A stretch of 64,000 nt of DNA. Source: Brevundimonas sp. GTDB taxonomy: Bacteria; Pseudomonadota; Alphaproteobacteria; Caulobacterales; Caulobacteraceae. Below are positions 6,507 to 16,678 of this stretch, one piece after another; the stretch's first letter is position 1, and every line of letters starts with the position of its first letter. Under the pieces are notes generated by a model that ran no database searches, was not told the DNA's origin, and saw only the letters and a list, made by a program, of their open reading frames with translations. Location: NCBI RefSeq assembly GCF_027484365.1, contig NZ_JAIXTC010000002.1:1-64000 (forward strand). The letters run 5' to 3'. The position numbers and the translations under genes are program-made.

Positions 6507-7724
6507 CTAGACCGCCTGCCCCGCCGCCCAGCCCGACGACCACGCCCACTGGAAATTATAGCCGCCCAGCCAGCCCGTGACGTCGACCACCTCGCCGATG
6601 AAATACAGGCCGGGCACGGATTTCGCCGCCATGGTCTGCTGGTCCAGCTGATCGGTCGCCACCCCGCCCAGGGTGACCTCGGCGGTGCGGTAGCCCTCCG
6701 ACCCCACCGGCTTGACGGTCCAGCCGTTCACCGCCGCATCCAGCCGCGCCAGCACCTTGTCCCCGACCTCGGCCAGCTTGCCGTTCGCGCCCTCGCGCGC
6801 GGTCAGCACCTCGGCCAGCCGGCGCGGGACGATATGGCCGAGCGCCGTGTGCACCGCCTGTTTGCCGCCGTTCTCGGCCTTGGCCGCCTTCAGCCGCCCC
6901 AGCACGTCGACGCCGGGTGCCATCTTCACCGTGATCGCCTCCCCTTCGCGCCAGTAGGAGCTGATCTGCAGGATGGCCGGCCCCGACAGCCCCCGGTGCG
7001 TGAACAGCATGGCCTCATTGAACGTGGGCCTACCACCCTGTGGGCTACTTGAGGCCGGGTTGGAGGTGACCGAAACATCCACCGCCACCCCCGCCAGCGG
7101 CGTCGTCTGTTCCAGCAGCCCCGCCTCGAAGGTCAGGGGCACCAGCGCCGGCCGCGTCTCCGTCACCCGTAGCCCCATCGACCGCGCGAGGTCATAGCCC
7201 CACCCCGTCGCCCCCATCTTGGGGATCGACTTCCCGCCCGAGGCCACCACCAGCGAGCCGCATTTCACCGCCCCCCCGTCCGACAGGCTCAGGGCGAACC
7301 CCTCCCCCTCGCGCGTCACCGAGGCCACGCCGGTGTTCAGCCTCAGCACCGCCCCCGCCTCCCGCATCGCCCCGGTCAGCATCGCCACGATCTGTTTGGC
7401 CGAGTCGTCGCAGAACAGCTGGCCCAGGGTCTTCTCGTGCCAGGCGATGCCCGCCCGATCCACCCGCTGAACAAAGTCCGCCACCGTGAATCGCCCGAGC
7501 GCCGAGGCCGCGAACCGCGGGTTCTCCCCCAGGAAGTTCGCCACCGTCGTCCCGGTGTTGGTGAAGTTGCACCGCCCCCCGCCACTGATGCGGATCTTCT
7601 CGCCCGGCGCCCGCGCGTGGTCGAGGACCAGCACCCGCCGTCCCCGCCGCCCGGCCTCGGCCGCGCACATCATCCCGGCAGCGCCCGCGCCGACCACCAC
7701 CACGTCGAAAGTCTCTGATCTCAT
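6507..7724 (-). CDS. BaiN/HI0933-type NAD(P)/FAD-dependent oxidoreductase
   Basis: A 405-residue flavoprotein. The N-terminus has the dinucleotide-binding motif VVVGAGAAGMMCA (about 9-21), then GEKIRISGGGRCNFTN, a hallmark of the HI0933/YhiN/BaiN family. The C-terminus has GLYFIGEVVDVTGWLGGYNFQWAW, the second FAD contact region, typical of the family. Relatives include the BaiN bile-acid reductase, but the physiological substrate in most bacteria is unknown. Length and motifs are complete. It stands alone: its 5' side faces the repeat/Fic region and its 3' side the RTX gene, both about 100 bases away or more. Confidence 0.9.
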   Translation of the reverse strand: MRSETFDVVVVGAGAAGMMCAAEAGRRGRRVLVLDHARAPGEKIRISGGGRCNFTNTGTTVANFLGENPRFAASALGRFTVADFVQRVDRAGIAWHEKTLGQLFCDDSAKQIVAMLTGAMREAGAVLRLNTGVASVTREGEGFALSLSDGGAVKCGSLVVASGGKSIPKMGATGWGYDLARSMGLRVTETRPALVPLTFEAGLLEQTTPLAGVAVDVSVTSNPASSSPQGGRPTFNEAMLFTHRGLSGPAILQISSYWREGEAITVKMAPGVDVLGRLKAAKAENGGKQAVHTALGHIVPRRLAEVLTAREGANGKLAEVGDKVLARLDAAVNGWTVKPVGSEGYRTAEVTLGGVATDQLDQQTMAAKSVPGLYFIGEVVDVTGWLGGYNFQWAWSSGWAAGQAV

Positions 7725-7884
7725 GGTTCAGCCCCTTACAGCATCCGGATGCGCGGCCGCACGGGCGGACTCGCTCCCCTGCCTGTGCACAAACCAGAAC
7801 AAACCACGAACATCCCCTTGCCTCCGCCCCGTCCCCGGTGTTCAACCACCCCCGGGTCGGCCCCCATCCCCGAGGCGTTTCCAG

Positions 7885-8130
7885 ATGACATCCCCCACTT
7901 CCGGCCCCACCCCCGACCCCCGCCCCGTCGCCCCCGACCTGGAGCGGCTCCTCGCCCCCCTGCGCGGTCTCGACCTGACCAGCGCCGACGGCCGCTGCGG
8001 CATCAAGACCCTCCTGGCCGAGATCGAGCGCCTGTCCCCCGGCGTCATCCTGCAACAGGCGGCGGGCATCCAGCTCCGGCGTCTGGGCTGCGTCACCCTC
8101 GCCGACCACCGCGACCGTGCCGCGGGCTGA
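7885..8130 (+). CDS. small protein carrying repeat copy 1, unknown
   Basis: An 81-residue open frame. Its C-terminal 55 residues (GLDLTSADGRCGIKTLLAEIE and on, to ADHRDR) are almost identical to those of the frame at 9101-9316; the first 25 residues are Pro-rich and differ. The start signal is weak here. It ends four bases before the convergent stop of the Fic gene. I do not recognise the family. It may be a real small protein, a cut-down paralogue or simply an open frame across a DNA repeat. Confidence 0.35.
   Translation: MTSPTSGPTPDPRPVAPDLERLLAPLRGLDLTSADGRCGIKTLLAEIERLSPGVILQQAAGIQLRRLGCVTLADHRDRAAG
7953..8121 (+). repeat. 169-bp direct repeat, copy 1
   Basis: Identical to 9136-9304 except for three single-base substitutions that I can count by aligning the two by eye. 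The two copies are in the same orientation and bracket the Fic/antitoxin pair. A third, decayed copy lies at about 9579-9682. Confidence 0.9.
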
Positions 8131-8134
8131 AACG

Positions 8135-8728
8135 CTACAGCAGGCTGCGGATCACCCGGGTCAGGGGCGCCTCGTCGCCATTGAACGCGGCGATCATGGC
8201 CTCGAGATACTGCTGTCGATCGATCCGGCCCACGCCGATGGCATGCCCCGCCCGTTCGGCCAGCAGCACCAGAAATGCTTTCTGGGCCCTGCCATTCCCT
8301 TCCCGAAACGGGTGGATGACGTTTAGTTCGGACAGGACATGCGCCGCCCCCGCTGCGAAGGCGTCGGCATCCAGTCCGCGCAGATGATCGGCCCGCGCCA
8401 GATTGGCGAACAGGATCTCCATCTGCCGCCCGATCTGCTCGGGATAGCAGAACGTGCTCGCGTCCTTGGTGATGCGGACCGTCCGGTCCTTGCCCGCCCA
8501 GCGATAGACCGGCCCGAACAGATGCCGATGGATGGCGCGATAGTGTCGGGCGTCCAGCGCGCCGTCAGGCAGGGGCTGGGTCGATCGAAAGGTGACGACG
8601 GCCGCCTCGAACTGATCCAGTTCGGCCTGGCCCCTCAGCCCGTTGCGGTTCTTCAGAACCGCCGTTCCCCTGTAGCAATAAGGATCGTCGTCGGCTGCAT
8701 ACAGGGGTTCAAAGGGCGCGTCGGACAG
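8135..8728 (-). CDS. Fic domain protein (probable AMP-transferase toxin), non-canonical start
   Basis: The frame encodes a full Fic domain: an N-terminal stretch typical of the family (DPYCYRGTAVLKNRNGL), HLFGPVYRWAGKDRTVRI, then the complete active motif HPFREGNGRAQ (about residues 139-149), whose His deprotonates the target hydroxyl while the Gly-rich part holds the nucleotide phosphates. There is no ATG, GTG or TTG before the internal ATG at 8422, which would cut off half the domain. The frame is open right back to the TAG of the upstream antitoxin gene, and that TAG is in the same frame. CTG at 8728, three codons after it, is the most plausible start and gives 197 residues beginning LSDAPFEP, the expected family length. 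Fic toxins AMPylate host proteins such as gyrase in known class I pairs; the target here is unknown. Confidence 0.8.
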   Translation of the reverse strand: MSDAPFEPLYAADDDPYCYRGTAVLKNRNGLRGQAELDQFEAAVVTFRSTQPLPDGALDARHYRAIHRHLFGPVYRWAGKDRTVRITKDASTFCYPEQIGRQMEILFANLARADHLRGLDADAFAAGAAHVLSELNVIHPFREGNGRAQKAFLVLLAERAGHAIGVGRIDRQQYLEAMIAAFNGDEAPLTRVIRSLL

Positions 8729-8734
8729 GGGCGC

Positions 8735-9085
8735 CTACTTTTTGAACGCCGCGACAATCGCGCCCAGCTGCTGCGCCGGGGTCATTCCCGACGCCTCGAC
8801 GTCCCGCAACACCCTTCGCGACGCCGCGTTCAGCGCCACGCCCTCGATCCCGTTCAGCCGCACGGCCGTATCCCGCCCCAGCGTCAGTGTCTCGCGCACC
8901 TTGCCGTTCGCCTGATGGACGGTCAGCACTCCGCCCTGACGCGCCAGCGCCCGCTTCGCCGCCGCCACGGCCTCGGCCCGGGTCGGGAAGAACGAGCCGC
9001 CTGTCGCCCCCTCGCGCACCGCCCACCGGCCGTCGACTTTCGCGACGGCGACGGACCCGGAATGGCGCGTTGAGCTTTTTGGCAT
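8735..9085 (-). CDS. DUF2188 protein with VbhA-like antitoxin tail
   Basis: A 116-residue protein from the ATG at 9085. Residues 5-65 match DUF2188 (VDGRWAVREGA, then FFPTRAEAVAAAKRALARQGG, then NGKVRE). Residues 73-116 resemble the C-terminal part of VbhA-type Fic antitoxins: IEGVALNAASRRVLRDVEASG followed by a helix. The Glu-Gly of IEG is where VbhA-like proteins insert the inhibitory glutamate into the Fic site, but the Ser/Thr usually four residues before it is a Leu, so the motif is imperfect. Its TAG is directly followed, in the same frame, by the Fic gene, which fits an antitoxin-first operon. The antitoxin role is inferred from similarity and position. Confidence 0.6.
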   Translation of the reverse strand: MPKSSTRHSGSVAVAKVDGRWAVREGATGGSFFPTRAEAVAAAKRALARQGGVLTVHQANGKVRETLTLGRDTAVRLNGIEGVALNAASRRVLRDVEASGMTPAQQLGAIVAAFKK

Positions 9086-9100
9086 GATCGGGAGTCTATC

Positions 9101-9316
9101 ATGGAACAGGACAGCGCCAAGACGCTGCGTCCGCCCGCCCCCCTGCGCGGTCTCGACCTGACCAGCGCCGACGGCCGCTGCGGCATCAAGACCCTCCTGG
9201 CCGAGATCGAGCGCCTCTCCCCCGGCGTCATCCTGCAACAGGCGGCGGGCATCCAGATCCGGCGTCCGGGCTGCGTCACCCTCGCCGACCACCGCGACCG
9301 TGCCCAGGCGTCCTAA
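9101..9316 (+). CDS. small protein carrying repeat copy 2, unknown
   Basis: A 71-residue frame whose ATG is preceded at six bases by GGGAG, a better start signal than the copy-1 frame has. From residue 12 on it is nearly identical to the frame at 7885-8130 (GLDLTSADGRCGIKTLLAEIE, VILQQAAGIQ). It is divergent from the antitoxin gene, with only 15 bases between the two start codons, so the two would share a regulatory region. No known family. Its reading frame is also recognisable in the decayed third repeat, which weakly favours protein coding. Confidence 0.45.
   Translation: MEQDSAKTLRPPAPLRGLDLTSADGRCGIKTLLAEIERLSPGVILQQAAGIQIRRPGCVTLADHRDRAQAS
9136..9304 (+). repeat. 169-bp direct repeat, copy 2
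   Basis: Same length and orientation as 7953-8121 with three substitutions. It starts inside the small frame 9101-9316 and ends just before that frame's stop. With copy 1 it brackets the Fic/antitoxin operon. Confidence 0.9.
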
Positions 9317-9332
9317 GGGCGAAGAGCGGATC

Positions 9333-9566
9333 ATGTACCTGCGCCAGTCCCATTTCCGGGAGGAGGCGGGCGGCGGCCCCCTCCATGCGATGGTCCAGTG
9401 GGACGACGGCCTCAACGGCCGCGAGGCCTTCCTCAACCCCGGCCACTACCCCCCGTTCGAGGGCCCCGGCGCCGGGTTCCGCCTGATCCGCCACAAGAAG
9501 GGGTCCTATAGTTTCATCGAGCGGGTCGCGGACAAGGGCGGGGCGGCGTGGCGGGGGGAGGGGTGA
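9333..9566 (+). CDS. small hypothetical protein
   Basis: A 77-residue frame from ATG at 9333 (a GTG at 9300 would add 11 residues and overlap the previous frame). The sequence is not the arginine/proline-rich kind expected of a chance frame in this GC-rich DNA: it has mixed composition with aromatic residues (MYLRQSHFREEAGG, AMVQWDDGLNGREAFLNPGHYPPFEG, GSYSFIERVAD). No family recognised. It lies between repeat copies 2 and 3. Confidence 0.4.
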   Translation: MYLRQSHFREEAGGGPLHAMVQWDDGLNGREAFLNPGHYPPFEGPGAGFRLIRHKKGSYSFIERVADKGGAAWRGEG

Positions 9567-9578
9567 TCGGGGGCGGGG

Positions 9579-9682
9579 GCCACTACGGCGTTCGGGGCCT
9601 CCTGGTCGGGATCGAGTGCCTCTTCCCGGGCGCCATCCTGCAACAAGCGGTGGGGATCCAGCTCAGACGGCTGGGATGCGAG
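9579..9682 (+). repeat. decayed third copy of the 169-bp repeat
   Basis: About 104 bases align with the middle of the repeat, around the segment encoding ILQQA-GIQLRRLGC, but with some twenty substitutions scattered over all codon positions. It marks the left edge of the AT-richer island that follows. Confidence 0.7.
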
Positions 9683-9783
9683 CTCCGAGGGTTGAACCAA
9701 TCTATGGCAACCTCTACCGTGGCGAAGCTTGAGCTTGACTGATCAACCATGGGTGGATTTAGGTCGTTCGTGTTCAGAGAGGC

Positions 9784-11256
9784 GTGACCAGTACGATGTT
9801 TACGATCCTCCATTTGTCGGACCTACATCGGTCACCCGATGAACCGGTCGACAATGTCTCTCTCCTGGCATCCCTCGTGAACGATCTAGATCGAGCGAGA
9901 AGGGAGACGCCGCCTTGCCCGCCGCCTGACGCAATCATTGTGAGCGGTGATATCATTCAAGGGGCCAGAATTGCCCAGAAGGGCTGGGCGACCGCCGTCC
10001 GAGAGCAATATGACGTGGCGGAAGCCTTCCTCGGCTCCTTGGCGGACACTTTTTTGGACGGTGACCGCAGTCGGCTGATCCTAATCCCCGGCAATCATGA
10101 TGTGTGCTGGAATACCGCTTTTGAAGCGATGGAGGAGGTTCACTACGATCCCGCAAATCAAACAATCCGAAGTCAGCTCAACTCGCCAGAAAGTACCTAT
10201 AGGTGGGATTGGTCCAAGCTGAAACTCTACAGAATTCAAGACTTAAAACGGTATGATCAACGGCTGGGGGCGTATTGGTCATTTGTTGAGCGCTTCTACG
10301 CCGGAGCTAACCTTGCTCACTCAATTGATCCGAACCGAGGCTATCAGCTTTTTGAGCTCAACGAAGGACGCATTGTGGTGGCGGCTTTCGATTCAACCCA
10401 CCAAAATGACTGCTACGCTTATGCGGGGGCATTCTCGCCGAGCGCTGCGGGTAGTGCATTTCTTAAGTTGCGAGACCTGACAAGGTCGGCCGATCTGAAA
10501 ATCGCAGTCTGGCATCACAGCGTCCAAGGACCGCCAAACAGTAACGATTATATGGACGTCGGGCAGGTCCACGCATTAGTGGGGCACGGGTTCCAGCTAG
10601 GCTTGCATGGCCATCAGCACATCGCGGCTGAGGCAGCCTACTATGTCCATCGCGCAGAAGCGCAGAAGATGGCCGTGATTAGCGCAGGAAGTCTCTGCGC
10701 AGGTTCACGCGAACTGCCGCGTGGTGTTAATCGCCAGTACAACGTCATTGTGGTGGATGACGACCACGCAAGCGCTCGCCTGCATGTCCGCGAAATGGGT
10801 GAAGGTGCTCACTTCGCGTCCAAGCGGAGTGGAGCCTTCTTAGAGGGTTTCATTCGGGTGGATTGGCAGCCACCTCTCGATTTGGCCGGGAGGCCTGTTG
10901 ACGTGGCGGAGGATTCCGAACGCCGCGCCGTGGACGAGGCCGAGAACGCGTTGAACAGTGGCGATCCTTTGGGGGCGCTTAGGGTGCTTGAGACCGTTGC
11001 GCTGCTGCCCGCCTCCTACGCCCGCGCACTGGCGTTGCGCGCTGCTGTAGCTCTCGATGATCACGATGCCGTAGCAAGGATTATCGATAGCCCCGCTAGT
11101 GTTACAGAGGCAGTTCAGCTCGTAAGTTCATTTGAACGGCTTGGTAGATTGCCAGAAGCGTTGCTTCTTCTTGAAAATTTGCCTGACATAGACATTTCAA
11201 CAAAACGCGCACTTCAAGATCGCATCGAGATCAAGCTTCGGATCAAAACAACATGA
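9784..11256 (+). CDS. calcineurin-like metallophosphoesterase with helical C-terminal region
   Basis: About 490 residues from GTG at 9784 (ATG at 9796 is the alternative). The N-terminal two thirds is a complete binuclear metallophosphoesterase: DLH (Asp13, His15), GD (Asp56), GNHD (Asn104-Asp106), a metal His at 244/245 (WHH) and GHQH (276-279). Residues from about 365 on form paired helices resembling TPR-type repeats (ENALNSGDPLGALRVLE, SFERLGRLPEALLLLE). Cytoplasmic; no signal peptide. The stop overlaps the next gene's start as ATGA, so the two are translationally coupled. Base composition is visibly AT-richer than the flanks and the codons are atypical, indicating horizontal transfer. 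The substrate could be nucleic acid, a nucleotide or a phosphoprotein; nothing decides. Possibly part of a defence system (inference). Confidence 0.85.
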   Translation: MTSTMFTILHLSDLHRSPDEPVDNVSLLASLVNDLDRARRETPPCPPPDAIIVSGDIIQGARIAQKGWATAVREQYDVAEAFLGSLADTFLDGDRSRLILIPGNHDVCWNTAFEAMEEVHYDPANQTIRSQLNSPESTYRWDWSKLKLYRIQDLKRYDQRLGAYWSFVERFYAGANLAHSIDPNRGYQLFELNEGRIVVAAFDSTHQNDCYAYAGAFSPSAAGSAFLKLRDLTRSADLKIAVWHHSVQGPPNSNDYMDVGQVHALVGHGFQLGLHGHQHIAAEAAYYVHRAEAQKMAVISAGSLCAGSRELPRGVNRQYNVIVVDDDHASARLHVREMGEGAHFASKRSGAFLEGFIRVDWQPPLDLAGRPVDVAEDSERRAVDEAENALNSGDPLGALRVLETVALLPASYARALALRAAVALDDHDAVARIIDSPASVTEAVQLVSSFERLGRLPEALLLLENLPDIDISTKRALQDRIEIKLRIKTT

Positions 11257-13625
11257 CCAACACGGAATTGATCCCATTCAAAGTCGAGACGCAACGCGTG
11301 CTCGAATTATTCGCAACGCAAATATATCACTCTCCGCTAGCCCTACTACGGGAGAATACTCAGAACGCTTTTGATGCAATTCGACTAAGATTACACGACG
11401 GCCAAGACTTCAAACCCAAGATAGATATAACGATTTCTCCGACTGAAATTGTTGTAGAAGACAACGGCCTCGGTATGACCGAGGAAGATCTTAAGCAGCA
11501 TTTCTGGCAAGCTGGCAGCAGCAGCAAAAATACGGCAGAGGCGCGCGCTGCAGGCGTTGTAGGAACCTTCGGTATCGGTGCCATGGCGAGTTTCGGCATA
11601 GCTGATGCCGTGACGGTGGAGACTGAGAGTGCGCTCAACGGCGAGCGGCGTAGAAGTCATGCTGAGAAGGCCAAACTGTCTCTAACGGAGAACTGTGTTG
11701 AGCTCGCAGACGAGTTGCCGACGGGCTTTCCAGGAACCCGTGTCGTGGCGCACGTACGCGCAGGCGAAACAGTCAATGTTCAGCAGGCTCGGGATTATAT
11801 CTCGGATTTCGTCGCCTTGGTCGATCTCCCGGTACTGATCAATGGCGAGCTTGTAAGTCAGAAGCCTATTGAGTCGGCGGTTCCGGTCGTCCCGGAGACT
11901 TGGCGTCTCGCGGAGGACGGTCGCGCAATTGGGCAGCATCTCGTGGCGAATGTGCTTTTTGTACTTTCGAACAACGCGGAGATTTGGCTGAAACTCACGG
12001 AGATGACTTGGCAAGGCGCGCCGCTCACGGGACAGATCGTCTTACGTAGCGGAACAAATGCGCTGCGCACCTTTCGAAGTGGCTTTGGATTAGCGACTGT
12101 ATCCGTGAACTCCGCGTATCAATTTGGCGGTGTTGTCGATCTATTGAACCTTCAGCCGACTGCAGGACGTGAGGCCATCACGGTGGATGGCGTGCAAATG
12201 CTCCAGTCAATCATGGTTGATATTGATCGATTTACATCCGAAGTTCTTAGCAATCGAGAAGAGTGCGACTCTAGTACGCCTTTTATGAGCTGGGTATCGC
12301 GCCATGGCCGGGTGGACCTAATGGGGCGCCTGAAGGCTACCATCACACCTGGGGATCGCATTTCTCTTGCAGAGCTTCAAATTAGGACCGCGCAGACTCC
12401 CATACTTTATTATCAGGGAACAGATCAGGGTATTGTTAAACAACACGCTACCGATGAGCGACCCGTTCTTGTGTTAGCGCGTGGGAACCCGCGCCGACAA
12501 TGTGAACAACTCTACATACAGTCGTTTGTGAAAACGGCATCAATATCTGACAAGCCGATAGCCAATAAAAAGAAGCCGTTTAAAGACCTTTCCACCGCAG
12601 AGAGTGCGCTGGCTTGGCGGCTCGAAACAATTTTGGACGCCGACTATTTTGTAAAGGCCAAAGTGGCTTTTGCCAGCATCACTCATAACCTTCCCATCTT
12701 GGCCGAGAAGAACGGAAATCAAATACAGGTTATTTTGGATCCCGAATCTCAGTCAGTCCGGATGCTACTTGAAGTTTATGATAGAGATTTTGCCGTATTT
12801 GGCGGGCTAGCAAAAGATTTTGTCAGGAATATCGTATTTCAACGCATAGCTGATTATGTCCCGAGTAGTACAAGACAGGGGGCAGAGGCATTTCTTTCGG
12901 CAATCCGAAAAACGAGGGAATTGTTTGAATACGGCGATCTTGATTTGGGAAGTCTGCCGCAGATTTGGGAAGACCAAGAGCAAGGCCGGATCACGTTGGA
13001 TGAAGCGGTTCAACGCTCACGTATCGCAGCGCGGACAAATGTCCAGTTCATCGACGCCGGGACGGCTGTGCGCGCCAGCCAAGTTGTAGGAGATGTAATC
13101 GAGAATGAACACGCTCTACAGATAGCAGAGGGTGGCAGTACGGTAGAATCTTCTCACTCTGTCGATTTTGAATCTGCGCCAGCCATAACTCGTGTCGAGA
13201 AGGAAACGAGTGCCAAGCTTCTCATAATCGATGACAGCGAGCCTGCTTTGCGAGGTTATCGATGCTTCCTTGCGTTGTCAGATCGAGCCAGAGAGGAAAT
13301 GGGCGAGTTCTTTTTGCAGCCCCATAAAACATCGATTGTTTGGGGTGGGCAAAAGACGCTCTTCATATTTCTCCATCACTCAGGTGAGTTTGGACTTTAC
13401 TATGATCTCCAAACGCGTGAAGCGATCGACGCTAATGCGGGTGGCGGACCCTTTCCAACAGCGACTATCGTCCTCAAGAACGCGATCTATATCCCGATCC
13501 CCGACGCTATTCGCGACAGTTTCGTTCCGATCCAAGGTGAACGAAAGCGGTTCGAAGTTCGGGCCGATATCATCCGAACAGAATCGTCCGAGACGAGGGG
13601 GCGGTTAAGCGGGCCCGCCGCCTAG
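11253..13625 (+). CDS. Hsp90-like (GHKL) ATPase, partner of the phosphoesterase
   Basis: A 790-residue protein. The N-terminal domain has all Bergerat-fold motifs in HtpG-like form: LLRENTQNAFDAIR (Glu34, Asn38, Asp41), VEDNGLGM (Asp70), and GTFGIGAMASFGIAD (104-118), closest in style to the HtpG G-x-FG-x-G loop. A middle region to about residue 370 is compatible with an S5-like/Hsp90 middle domain. The remaining 400 residues, ending in a beta-rich segment (TSIVWGGQKTLFIFLHHSG, then AIYIPIPDAIRDSF), match nothing I know. It is too long and divergent to be HtpG itself. Coupled by ATGA overlap to the phosphoesterase gene. AT-rich like its partner until the last ten codons, where the composition becomes GC-rich; its stop shares CTAG with polA. 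Confidence 0.8.
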   Translation: MTNTELIPFKVETQRVLELFATQIYHSPLALLRENTQNAFDAIRLRLHDGQDFKPKIDITISPTEIVVEDNGLGMTEEDLKQHFWQAGSSSKNTAEARAAGVVGTFGIGAMASFGIADAVTVETESALNGERRRSHAEKAKLSLTENCVELADELPTGFPGTRVVAHVRAGETVNVQQARDYISDFVALVDLPVLINGELVSQKPIESAVPVVPETWRLAEDGRAIGQHLVANVLFVLSNNAEIWLKLTEMTWQGAPLTGQIVLRSGTNALRTFRSGFGLATVSVNSAYQFGGVVDLLNLQPTAGREAITVDGVQMLQSIMVDIDRFTSEVLSNREECDSSTPFMSWVSRHGRVDLMGRLKATITPGDRISLAELQIRTAQTPILYYQGTDQGIVKQHATDERPVLVLARGNPRRQCEQLYIQSFVKTASISDKPIANKKKPFKDLSTAESALAWRLETILDADYFVKAKVAFASITHNLPILAEKNGNQIQVILDPESQSVRMLLEVYDRDFAVFGGLAKDFVRNIVFQRIADYVPSSTRQGAEAFLSAIRKTRELFEYGDLDLGSLPQIWEDQEQGRITLDEAVQRSRIAARTNVQFIDAGTAVRASQVVGDVIENEHALQIAEGGSTVESSHSVDFESAPAITRVEKETSAKLLIIDDSEPALRGYRCFLALSDRAREEMGEFFLQPHKTSIVWGGQKTLFIFLHHSGEFGLYYDLQTREAIDANAGGGPFPTATIVLKNAIYIPIPDAIRDSFVPIQGERKRFEVRADIIRTESSETRGRLSGPAA

Positions 13626-16555
13626 TGCGCCTCATCCCAGTTCTTCGCCGCTCTCGCCTCCACCACCAGCGGCACCGACAGCGCCACGGCGGGTTCCGCC
13701 GCCCCCTCCATGACCCGGCGGATGACGGGGATGGCGGTCTCGGCCAGGGCGTCCGGGCATTCGAAGACCAGTTCGTCGTGGACCTGGAGCAGCATCTTGA
13801 CCTCCGACAGTCCGGCCGCCTCCAGCGCTGAGGGCATGCGGATCATGGCGCGGCGGATGATGTCGGCGGCGGCGCCCTGGATCGGGGCGTTGATGGCGGC
13901 GCGCTCGCCGAACTGGCGTTCGGCGCCCGATTTGGAATGGATGGCCGGGATGTGGATGCGGCGGCCGAAGACGGTGGAGACGAACCCCGCCTGGCGGACC
14001 TCGGCCTTGGTCGCGTCCATATAGTCGCGGATGCCGGGGAAGCGTTCGAAATAGGTCTTGATATAGGCGCCGGCCTCGCCCTGGTCGATGTTCAGCTGGG
14101 CGGCCAGGCCGAAGGCCGAGATGCCGTAGACGATGCCGAAGTTGATGGCCTTGGCGCGGCGGCGGGTCTCGGGGTCCATCTGGTCGACGGGGACGCCGAA
14201 CATCTCCGACGCCGTGGCCGTGTGGATGTCGATCCCGGCCTTGAAGGCGCGTTTCAGCTCGGGGATGTCGCCGATATGGGCCAGCAGCCGCAGCTCGATC
14301 TGGGAATAGTCGGCGCTGATCAGGACGTGGCCGTCGCGGGCGATGAAGGCTTGGCGGATCTGGCGGCCCGTCTCGGTGCGGATCGGGATGTTCTGCAGAT
14401 TGGGGTCGGAGGAGGCGAGGCGCCCCGTCGTCGCCGCCGCCAGCTGGTAACTGGTGTGGACCCGGTCGGTGGCCTCGTCCATCGCCGCGACAAGCGCGTC
14501 CGTATAGGTGCCCTTGAGCTTGGACAGCTGGCGCCAGTCGAGGATGGCGCGGGGCAGGGGGTGGGTCTCGGCGAGGGTTTCGAGGGTGGCGGCGCCGGTC
14601 TCCCACTGGCCCGAGGCGGTCTTCTTGCCGCCGGGCAGGTTGAGCTCGCCGAACAGCAGTTCGCCTATCTGTTTGGGACTCGAGATCGCGAAGGGGCGGC
14701 CGGCGATCTCGTGGGCCTGGGTCTCCAGCTCGGCCATGCGCAGCCCGAACTCCGACGACAGGCGGCGCAGGCGGGCGGGGTCGACGCGGATGCCCTCCAG
14801 CTCCATGTCGGCGAGGACCGCGGGCAGGGGCCGTTCCAGGGTCTCATAGACGGTGGCCAACCCTTCCGCCGCCAGCCGGGGTTTGAGCAGGCGCCACAGT
14901 CTCAGGGTTACGTCCGCGTCCTCGGCGGCGTAGGCGGTCGCCGGTTTCAGCGCGACATGTTTGAAGGATTTCTGGGACTTGCCTGTGCCGGCGACCGATT
15001 TGAACGGGATCGGGTCGTGGCCCAGATGGAGCCTCGACAGCTCATCCATCCCGTGTCCGTGCAGCCCGCCCTCCAGGACGTAGGAGATCAGCATGGTGTC
15101 GTCGGTCGGGGCGACGCGGATGCCCCTGCGGGCCATGACGGCCAGGTCGTATTTGCCGTTCTGGGTGACCTTCAGGACGGAGGGGTCCTCCAGCAGGGTC
15201 TTCAGTCGCGCCAGAACCGTGGCCTTGTCGAGCTGGTTCAGGGGCTCGCGCGTCTCGACCGCATCTCCGAAGTCCAGTCCGCCCCCGCCCGCCACCGGCT
15301 CATGCTCATGCGTCAGCGGAATATAGCAGGCGTCGTTCGGCCCGATCGCCAGGCTGACCCCGCACAGCCCTGCATGCGTCGCCGACAGGGCGTCCGTCTC
15401 GGTATCGAACCCGACCACCCCCGCCTCGCTCGCCCGCGCCAGGAAGGCGTCGAGCGCCTCCAGCGCCTGGATGCAGAGGTAGGCGTCGTGGTCGACCGCC
15501 TGTTTCTCGATCCCCTCCGGAATCGCCTGCGGCGCATAGCGGGGCGAGATGACCGGGGCGGTCAGGGGTGCGGGGCGGGGCGGGGCGAAGGCCGAGCCGT
15601 CGTGTCCCTCCAGCCGGCCGTCGCCGACCCGACGCAGCAGCGAGCGGAACTCCATCGTCTCGAGGAAGTCGGCCAGGATCGCCGGATCGGGATCGCGGAC
15701 CCTGAAGTCGTCGATCGGCTCGGGCGCGGGGGCGTCGCAGGTCAGGCGGACCAGCTGGCGGCTGAGCAGGATCTGATCGCGGAAATTGATCAGGGTCTCG
15801 CGCCGCTTCGGCTGTTTGATCTCGCCCGCCCGTTCCAGAAGCGTGTCGAGGTCGCCGTACTCGTCCAGCAGCTGGGCCGCCGTCTTCGGGCCGATGCCGG
15901 GGGCGCCGGGGACGTTGTCGACGCTGTCGCCGATCAGGGCCTGGAGGTCGATCATCTTGTCCGGCGTGACGCCGAACTTCTCCATCACCGCCTCCTCGGC
16001 CAGACGGCGATCCTTCATCGGGTCCCACATGACGACCGAGGGACCGATCAGTTGCATCAGGTCCTTGTCGGACGAGACGATGACGCACTCCCCGCCCGCG
16101 TCCCGCACCTTGCAGGCATAGGTGGCGATCAGGTCGTCGGCCTCATAGCCTGGCAGTTCAACGCAGTGGACGCCGAACGCCGCCGTCGCCTGCCGCACCA
16201 GCGGGAACTGGGGAACCAGATCCTCGGGCGCCGGCGGACGATGGGCCTTGTACTGGTCGTAGAGGTCGTTGCGGAACGTCTTCTCCGAGTGATCGAAGAT
16301 GGCCGCCAGGTGGGTCGGGCCGTCGGCGCCCTTCATGTCCTTCAACAGCTTCCACAGCATGTTGCAGTAGCCCTGGACCGCGCCCACCGGCAGGCCGTCG
16401 GACTTGCGCGTCAGCGGCGGCAGGGCGTGGTAGGCGCGGAAGATGTAGGCCGAAGCGTCGATCAGCCACAGCCGGACGGGAGGGCCGTCCTGGGTCAGGG
16501 GTTGATCGGTCTGCGGGGCGTCGGCGGCTTCGGGCGCGAGGTCGGCATCGGACAT
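13622..16555 (-). CDS. polA: DNA polymerase I
   Basis: 977 residues from the ATG at 16555, giving the expected MSDADLAP opening (an ATG at 16567 and open frame beyond are less likely). It has all three domains: the 5'-3' nuclease (WLIDASAYIFRAYHALPP, then GYEADDLIATYA, SSDKDLMQLI and DNVPGAPGIGPKTA), a 3'-5' exonuclease with its catalytic acids preserved (VVGFDTETDALS), and the polymerase with motif A DYSQIELRLLAHIG, motif B RRRAKAINFGIVYG and motif C QVHDELVFE. It fills gaps and removes RNA primers in replication and repair. It converges on the phosphoesterase/ATPase island with no spacer at all: the two stop codons overlap on CTAG. Confidence 0.97.
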   Translation of the reverse strand: MSDADLAPEAADAPQTDQPLTQDGPPVRLWLIDASAYIFRAYHALPPLTRKSDGLPVGAVQGYCNMLWKLLKDMKGADGPTHLAAIFDHSEKTFRNDLYDQYKAHRPPAPEDLVPQFPLVRQATAAFGVHCVELPGYEADDLIATYACKVRDAGGECVIVSSDKDLMQLIGPSVVMWDPMKDRRLAEEAVMEKFGVTPDKMIDLQALIGDSVDNVPGAPGIGPKTAAQLLDEYGDLDTLLERAGEIKQPKRRETLINFRDQILLSRQLVRLTCDAPAPEPIDDFRVRDPDPAILADFLETMEFRSLLRRVGDGRLEGHDGSAFAPPRPAPLTAPVISPRYAPQAIPEGIEKQAVDHDAYLCIQALEALDAFLARASEAGVVGFDTETDALSATHAGLCGVSLAIGPNDACYIPLTHEHEPVAGGGGLDFGDAVETREPLNQLDKATVLARLKTLLEDPSVLKVTQNGKYDLAVMARRGIRVAPTDDTMLISYVLEGGLHGHGMDELSRLHLGHDPIPFKSVAGTGKSQKSFKHVALKPATAYAAEDADVTLRLWRLLKPRLAAEGLATVYETLERPLPAVLADMELEGIRVDPARLRRLSSEFGLRMAELETQAHEIAGRPFAISSPKQIGELLFGELNLPGGKKTASGQWETGAATLETLAETHPLPRAILDWRQLSKLKGTYTDALVAAMDEATDRVHTSYQLAAATTGRLASSDPNLQNIPIRTETGRQIRQAFIARDGHVLISADYSQIELRLLAHIGDIPELKRAFKAGIDIHTATASEMFGVPVDQMDPETRRRAKAINFGIVYGISAFGLAAQLNIDQGEAGAYIKTYFERFPGIRDYMDATKAEVRQAGFVSTVFGRRIHIPAIHSKSGAERQFGERAAINAPIQGAAADIIRRAMIRMPSALEAAGLSEVKMLLQVHDELVFECPDALAETAIPVIRRVMEGAAEPAVALSVPLVVEARAAKNWDEAH

Positions 16556-16678
16556 GGCGGCGAACATAGGCGGCGCGGCCGGGCTCGTCACGATCGGAAA
16601 CCGCCTGATGTGTGAAGCTTGACCGCAGGGTCGCGATGCCGTCGGTTGAGCAGAACCGGGACGTCGGGGAGCGAGGTC

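Follow-up and report, generated by a model that had tools for sequence, protein, structure and literature searches.

In a 64,000-nt stretch of DNA from Brevundimonas sp. (positions 1 to 64,000 of contig NZ_JAIXTC010000002.1, hereafter the window), two overlapping genes encode a metallophosphoesterase (MPPE; gene A) and an Hsp90-like GHKL ATPase (gene B). The pair is probably an undescribed two-gene defence system in which an Hsp90-type clamp controls the phosphoesterase. An anti-phage role is suggested by carriage of the pair on mobile elements, by its neighbours, by one exchange of the effector gene and by the kinship of the MPPE with the DS-8 and DS-9 defence systems.

The two genes form a real coupled unit. 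ATPase loci were gathered by scanning genome contigs with an alignment of four ATPase sequences, further sources being viral contigs, tblastn searches of plasmids and phages, and genome samples. The best 80 of 91 confirmed genome loci, two plasmid loci and five viral loci make up the set of 87 (L and G numbers are the locus and genome labels of this analysis). The ATPase open reading frame (ORF) exceeds 740 aa in 78 of the 80 genome loci, and an MPPE homologue or fragment, detected with a profile of three MPPEs, adjoins it in 77 (68 with an MPPE ORF of more than 440 aa, nine with one that is split or cut). The coupling proposed in an earlier reading of the letters alone (the sequence-only reading) is borne out by these collected pairs, and as far as these loci show the homologues do not occur singly. 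The three misses are L036, at a contig end 81 nt before the ATPase; L051, apparently an interrupted MPPE, where what is left of the MPPE tail, 68 aa (E = 4.8e-16), lies behind a 518-aa ORF without a Pfam match that we take to be transposase-like; and L083, described below. Across the 87 loci an MPPE ORF of more than 440 aa is kept in 73, 37 of these showing a 4-nt overlap between the longest ORFs; the viral loci L089 and L090, with identical ATPases, start at the ATPase. The two proteins have also evolved together. Their distance matrices correlate at r = 0.909 over 56 loci, a value reached by none of 2000 permutations (best 0.14), the loci including the close pairs L003/L074 (95%) and L069/L070 (90%). 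A distant homologue from the Chloroflexi sample (L169/L170) has an upstream gene that is MPPE-like by motif alone and has a longer C-terminus. Of the 27 viral-contig matches, 22 (L091-L112) were dropped, as they cover only parts of the ATPase query and were taken as other GHKL proteins.

The plasmid loci offer two further observations. On the Rhizobium sp. 007 plasmid the MPPE is an intact 490-aa ORF (L003:10523-11995, +), at which the plasmid record annotates three hypothetical proteins, two of them on the opposite strand. A Rhizobium leguminosarum plasmid encodes convergent ATP-binding proteins of 522 and 535 aa, weakly like the ATPase (L005:5899-9095), flanked by genes for a radical SAM and a PIN-like protein.

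Gene A is a calcineurin-like metallophosphoesterase. Pfam Metallophos matches residues 6-280 (E = 8.7e-12; 46.3 bits against a cut-off of 21.5), and all the ligands of the binuclear site that had been read from the sequence are present, their invariance being counted over 58 aligned MPPEs (Table 1). In the AlphaFold2 model (mean pLDDT 94.1) the protein ends in helical hairpins (helices 374-489, block pLDDT 91-98), and the mean identity of the homologues to the window MPPE is 22% in this tail against 40% over residues 1-365. The tail had been called TPR-like, but no TPR family matched gene A at E <= 1 in Pfam, so the term stands as a description only. Among the structural matches listed, YydB, SMPDL3A, Lmo2642, acid sphingomyelinase, Rv0805 and GpdQ rank best.

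Gene B is, as first read, a 790-residue GHKL ATPase with HtpG-like motifs. It matches Pfam HATPase_c_3 (E = 2e-10) and, over residues 8-203, the NCBIfam HSP90 family protein PRK14083 (E = 2.3e-24), and it lies under the curated cut-offs for HtpG (57.3 vs 371 bits) and the HSP90 family (85.8 vs 455 bits). The N-terminal GHKL motifs of Hsp90/HtpG (E/N box, DxGxG and GxxGxG) are invariant in 68/68 sequences, as are the 11 residues E34, N38, D41, D70, G72, G74, K92, G104, G107, G109 and T162. Profile alignment with hhalign joins residues 1-409 to HtpG (probability 99.5) and places R306 of the sequence PTAGRE, likewise invariant (68/68), on the arginine of HtpG NVSRE, which is presumably the catalytic middle-domain arginine. 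The C-terminal ~400 residues, which could not be placed from the sequence, are still without an assigned family. However, in the comparison that bears on a C-terminal dimerisation domain of the HtpG type, structural alignments of Hsp90 with the AlphaFold2 model (pLDDT 88.0) extend to residue ~540 at a root-mean-square deviation of ~8, whereas the profile alignment ends at 409, and the model suggests that this part may partly continue the Hsp90 fold. Residues 641-780 are conserved about as strongly as the ATPase domain, with W697 and Y716-Y717 invariant. Of the 50 viral structures listed as matching the ATPase model, 15 are named RIIA, with low TM-scores. A second, weaker Hsp90-like match was found in 24 of 40 carrier genomes.

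The statement that no named system has this pair also held. As a defence family the pair is absent from the defence libraries searched, matches to NCBIfam models all stay well short of the cut-offs, and no paper on an MPPE paired with an Hsp90-like ATPase was found in the open-access literature searched. The nearest NCBIfam families of the window MPPE are those of DS-9 and DS-8, both with metallophosphatase effectors: at E <= 0.001, DS9_1 matches 58/58 MPPEs and DS8 47/58. However, the window MPPE scores 49.4 bits against the DS9_1 equivalog cut-off of 420, and its 32.3 bits for DS-8 are far under the equivalog cut-off of 790. The second gene of DS-9 encodes a HAD phosphatase, whereas that of the window encodes a GHKL/Hsp90-like protein; DS-8 is a metallophosphatase-NACHT, whereas gene A shows Metallophos alone at E <= 1. 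The metallophosphatase catalytic residues of DS-8 and DS-9, which are DefensePredictor systems, are reported to be needed for anti-phage defence (PMC13092281). Further systems predicted in the same paper include, by one figure legend, some with HATPase and TPR domains, and the pair could be one of these.

Other relatives share single parts of the pair. With HtpG and TRAP1, the bacterial and mitochondrial Hsp90s, gene B has in common the N-terminal GHKL domain and a middle domain with a conserved arginine. Unlike them, it is operonic with an MPPE and under the HtpG and HSP90-family cut-offs, and it has a conserved C-terminal part and is ~100-165 residues longer than most of the htpG-locus proteins in the comparison. 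The defence proteins TmtA (presumably of Tiamat) and MzaB, which also contain a GHKL ATPase domain, gave partial, weak matches to the ATPase domain of gene B (7e-5 and 0.046). YydB, among the closest structures to the MPPE, is to our understanding a Bacillus subtilis protein whose partner YydD is an ABC/SMC-type ATPase, whereas here the partner is Hsp90-like; the matching entry is modelled with YydD (PDB 9a6c). The GHKL-Shedu protein VcSduA has a GHKL ATPase domain as does gene B, but with a fused PD-(D/E)xK nuclease, which the authors hypothesise to be controlled by the GHKL domain (PMC12137116). The calcineurin-like relative ShfP was set aside as a secreted protein (PMC11188070).

The pair differs from its surroundings in composition, as the sequence-only reading had judged by eye. 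Within the 64-kb window, the range of this comparison, its GC content is 0.530 against 0.668 for the whole, and GC at third codon positions is 0.578 in gene A and 0.520 in gene B, far under the 0.911 of polA. GC in sliding segments of 3,842 nt (median 0.679) falls to its minimum of 0.527 in the segment beginning at 9701; the profile is therefore not flat, and one finding that would have refuted the sequence-only reading did not turn up. The 80 genome loci lie in Pseudomonadota, Bacteroidota, Cyanobacteria, Actinomycetota, Chloroflexi, Acidobacteria, Planctomycetes and others, including two archaeal metagenome-assembled genomes (L046, L076). The pair is rare among relatives (2 of 101 genomes including its own at E 1e-10, that is, 1 other of 100) and in the phylum sample (its own genome only of 398, with 0 of 397 others at E 1e-25); in two further genome samples it was found in the seed genome only of 295 and in 4 of 301 including the seed. 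The homologue from the same genus (G047, which is L022, Brevundimonas vesicularis) is 46% identical to that of the window, whereas those of Methylocystis, Ensifer and cyanobacteria reach 60-62%. Judging from these identities the pair is horizontally transferred, in line with the acquisition first supposed and with one relative that lacks the stretch (below).

Carriage on prophages, plasmids or transposons was observed. The pair is on a Mu-like viral contig with terminases and Gam (L088), on a viral contig with portal and head protease genes (L086), and on plasmids typed as conjugative (L003, L004), and at L011 it adjoins transposition genes of the Tn7 type (TnsA, TniB and a Mu-type transposase). 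L011 also has a Mg-chelatase fragment, which we take to be comM, and L067 has another such fragment. The copy on a P. aeruginosa plasmid has an ABC-3C system within a few kb; IS21 and an integrase lie farther off, and a Fic gene ~11 kb away.

One locus has exchanged its effector. In Sedimenticola selenatireducens (L083:8392-9969, +), a 525-aa PNP_UDP_1 protein (E = 1.6e-20) replaces the MPPE upstream of the ATPase, the longest ORFs overlapping by 35 nt. A profile of the MPPE tail (from residue 366) matches this protein at 408-463, the expected place, with a score that none of 2000 shuffled versions of its C-terminal part reached, a sequence match suggestive of a docking tail shared by both effectors. 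In conflict systems, calcineurin-type phosphoesterases and PNPases are described as domains that alternate in the effector role (PMC7159879). With the L083 ATPase as query, no more variants of this type were found in viral contigs or in 368 other class-sample genomes; further swaps may be hidden beyond the best 80 of 91 loci. In Pedobacter sp. BMA, a PNP_UDP_1 protein adjoins the pair on the opposite strand (L038:4795-5634, -).

The neighbours of the pair are suggestive as well. The flanks of 20 loci (118 ORFs) were compared with those of htpG in these 20 genomes (116 ORFs), using longest-ORF calls and keeping in L122, which is on a short contig. PADLOC models at E <= 1e-20 number 183 near the pair and 56 near htpG, many of them redundant, and since models of one family overlap these counts overstate the difference. 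Proteins were identified from hand-picked subsets (10 case and 8 control, with L035 taken separately), and more case matches may exist. Near the pair are Septu with a type I specificity subunit (L067), type I restriction-modification (L007), a C5 methyltransferase (L027), Septu (L058), AbiD (L071), a methyltransferase (L026), ABC-3C with DUF3732 (L056) and a Septu-like but generic ATPase (L035); the htpG controls have Hma (L117), the candidate PDC-S02 (L133) and a generic RtcR-like protein (L119). Known defence genes tended to be commoner around the pair, a modest difference that varies with the way of counting, at 7 of 20 loci against 1 of 20 controls (p = 0.022).

Several observations weigh against a defence role. 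Without the generic ATPase of L035 the comparison becomes 6 against 1 of 20 (p = 0.046); with the weaker control matches counted it is 7 against 3 (p = 0.14), or 8 against 3 with L056 added (p = 0.08); and per protein it is 11/118 against 5/116 (p = 0.10). The proteins were picked by eye, and the surroundings of htpG are biased to housekeeping genes. For the window proteins themselves PADLOC gave partial, weak matches (best 7.3e-8 and 8.5e-7). The effector swap is known from the single locus L083, where the tail match has E = 1.9 among 8,643 ORFs and a few unrelated ORFs score higher. Lastly, 21/58 MPPEs also match NCBIfam models of the archaeal DNA polymerase II small subunit, so the superfamily tie to defence is not exclusive.

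If the pair is a defence system, gene B would be a dimeric, ATP-driven clamp of the Hsp90 type serving as sensor and switch, and gene A a binuclear metallophosphoesterase effector that docks on it through the C-terminal helical tail. While the cell is at rest, the clamp would cycle with ATP and keep the effector switched off. Phage infection may give rise to a trigger, perhaps a phage protein that engages the clamp as a client would, that alters the clamp and thereby frees or activates the phosphoesterase. This enzyme would then stop the infection by cleaving a phosphodiester, be it in a nucleotide, a second messenger or a nucleic acid. It is conceivable, though doubtful, that the clamp is itself the sensor of an immune machine and that interchangeable heads (phosphoesterase or nucleoside phosphorylase) plug into it via a common helical tail.

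Three other explanations rank under defence. The pair could serve as a toxin-antitoxin or a plasmid or prophage maintenance module, in which the MPPE is a toxin kept in check by the ATPase and cells that lose the pair die, a role that can overlap with defence. Tightly coupled genes with the effector first, on plasmids and viral contigs, would suit such a module. It is nonetheless unlikely given the ATPase, which has 790 residues and a full set of Hsp90-type catalytic residues and is to our knowledge far removed from the usual antitoxins; nor is the pair confined to plasmids, one copy being on a contig of 5.8 Mb (L014). Eukaryotic PP5 joins TPR repeats to a phosphatase and acts on Hsp90, and a helical-hairpin tail, a metallophosphatase and an Hsp90-like partner make up the same parts list, so that the tail might bind the clamp while the MPPE dephosphorylates client proteins of the host. 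PP5-Hsp90 structure entries do match the ATPase model, through Hsp90, but the 50 structural matches listed for the MPPE include no protein phosphatase of the PPP type, no common C-terminal peptide was seen among the 20 of 68 ATPase C-termini listed, and the patchy distribution (0/397 phylum-sample genomes, 1/100 other relatives) is unlike housekeeping, all of which makes a chaperone-phosphatase machine quite improbable. A DNA-processing nuclease of the SbcCD/Mre11-Rad50 type with an unusual ATPase is very improbable, as gene A scores 14.6 bits against the sbcd cut-off of 77.65, its partner is a GHKL/Hsp90 rather than an SMC-type ATPase, and YydB and SMPDL3A are structurally closer to the MPPE.

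Metallophosphatase effectors were recently shown to defend bacteria, their substrates being given as unknown (PMC13092281). If the pair is a defence system, it would bring such effectors under a new kind of control, by a complete Hsp90-like ATP clamp. Experiments could then ask whether infection is sensed by chaperone clamps in prokaryotes. Were the clamp indeed the sensor of an immune machine with exchangeable heads, prokaryotes would possess a counterpart of chaperone-guarded immunity, and phage RIIA proteins, long unexplained and apparently similar in fold, might be decoys or antagonists of such clamps; whether they oppose these systems would likewise become testable.

Table 1. Positions in the window of the gene pair, its parts and the segments around it
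Feature	Position	Strand	Basis
Gene A, metallophosphoesterase (MPPE)	9784..11256	+	490 aa ORF; Pfam Metallophos
Metal-ligand motif D13-x-H15	9820..9828	+	invariant 58/58
Metal ligand D56	9949..9951	+	invariant 58/58
N104-H105-D106 (GNHD motif)	10093..10101	+	invariant 58/58
H244-H245 (WHH motif)	10513..10518	+	invariant 58/58
H277-x-H279 (GHQH motif)	10612..10620	+	invariant 58/58
Gene A C-terminal helical-hairpin tail, residues 372-490, proposed docking module	10897..11253	+	AlphaFold2 helices
ATGA stop/start overlap of genes A and B	11253..11256	+	ORF list
Gene B, Hsp90-like GHKL ATPase	11253..13625	+	790 aa ORF; HATPase_c_3, PRK14083
GHKL N-terminal ATPase domain, ~residues 1-200	11253..11852	+	HtpG alignment; motif invariance
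Hsp90-type middle domain, ~residues 201-430	11853..12542	+	hhalign to HtpG
Gene B C-terminal part, ~residues 431-790	12543..13622	+	conservation; without family match
AT-rich foreign segment, edges approximate	9701..13600	.	GC windows, GC at third codon positions
Stretch absent in relative G022/L136	~7709..13632	.	blastn

Both ORFs and their overlap were found as first read (Table 1). The listed start of gene A is GTG, though translation may instead begin at the in-frame ATG at 9796. At its other end the pair meets polA, the convergent stop codons having CTAG in common. The polA loci of 29 relatives (L136-L164) were compared with 1.5 kb flanks. In L136 (G022; polA 89% identical), matches to window 6516-7708 and 13633-16591 lie ~23 nt apart, and a flavoprotein gene (window 6507-7724) is directly beside polA. 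The same flavoprotein neighbour lies ~370-390 nt from polA in L159-L161, and in the other 25 relatives the left side of the window was unmatched on that polA flank.

The stretch absent in L136 also contains a Fic pair and three 178-nt direct repeats. The Fic-domain protein (window 8138-9070, -) has the motif HPFREGNGRAQ, its frame is without a usual start codon at the 5' end, and the small protein before it ends in what we take to be a VbhA-type inhibitory helix. The earlier suggestion that genes A and B were acquired beside a Fic toxin pair holds as to adjacency, but the Fic pair (~8138-9070) has a host-like GC of 0.675 and so lies outside the AT-rich block, compositionally separate from it. 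The repeat copies (7944-8121, 9127-9304 and 9532-9709; identity 100, 96 and 60%) surround the Fic pair, the last bordering the AT-rich block on its left, and are possibly traces of repeated insertion.

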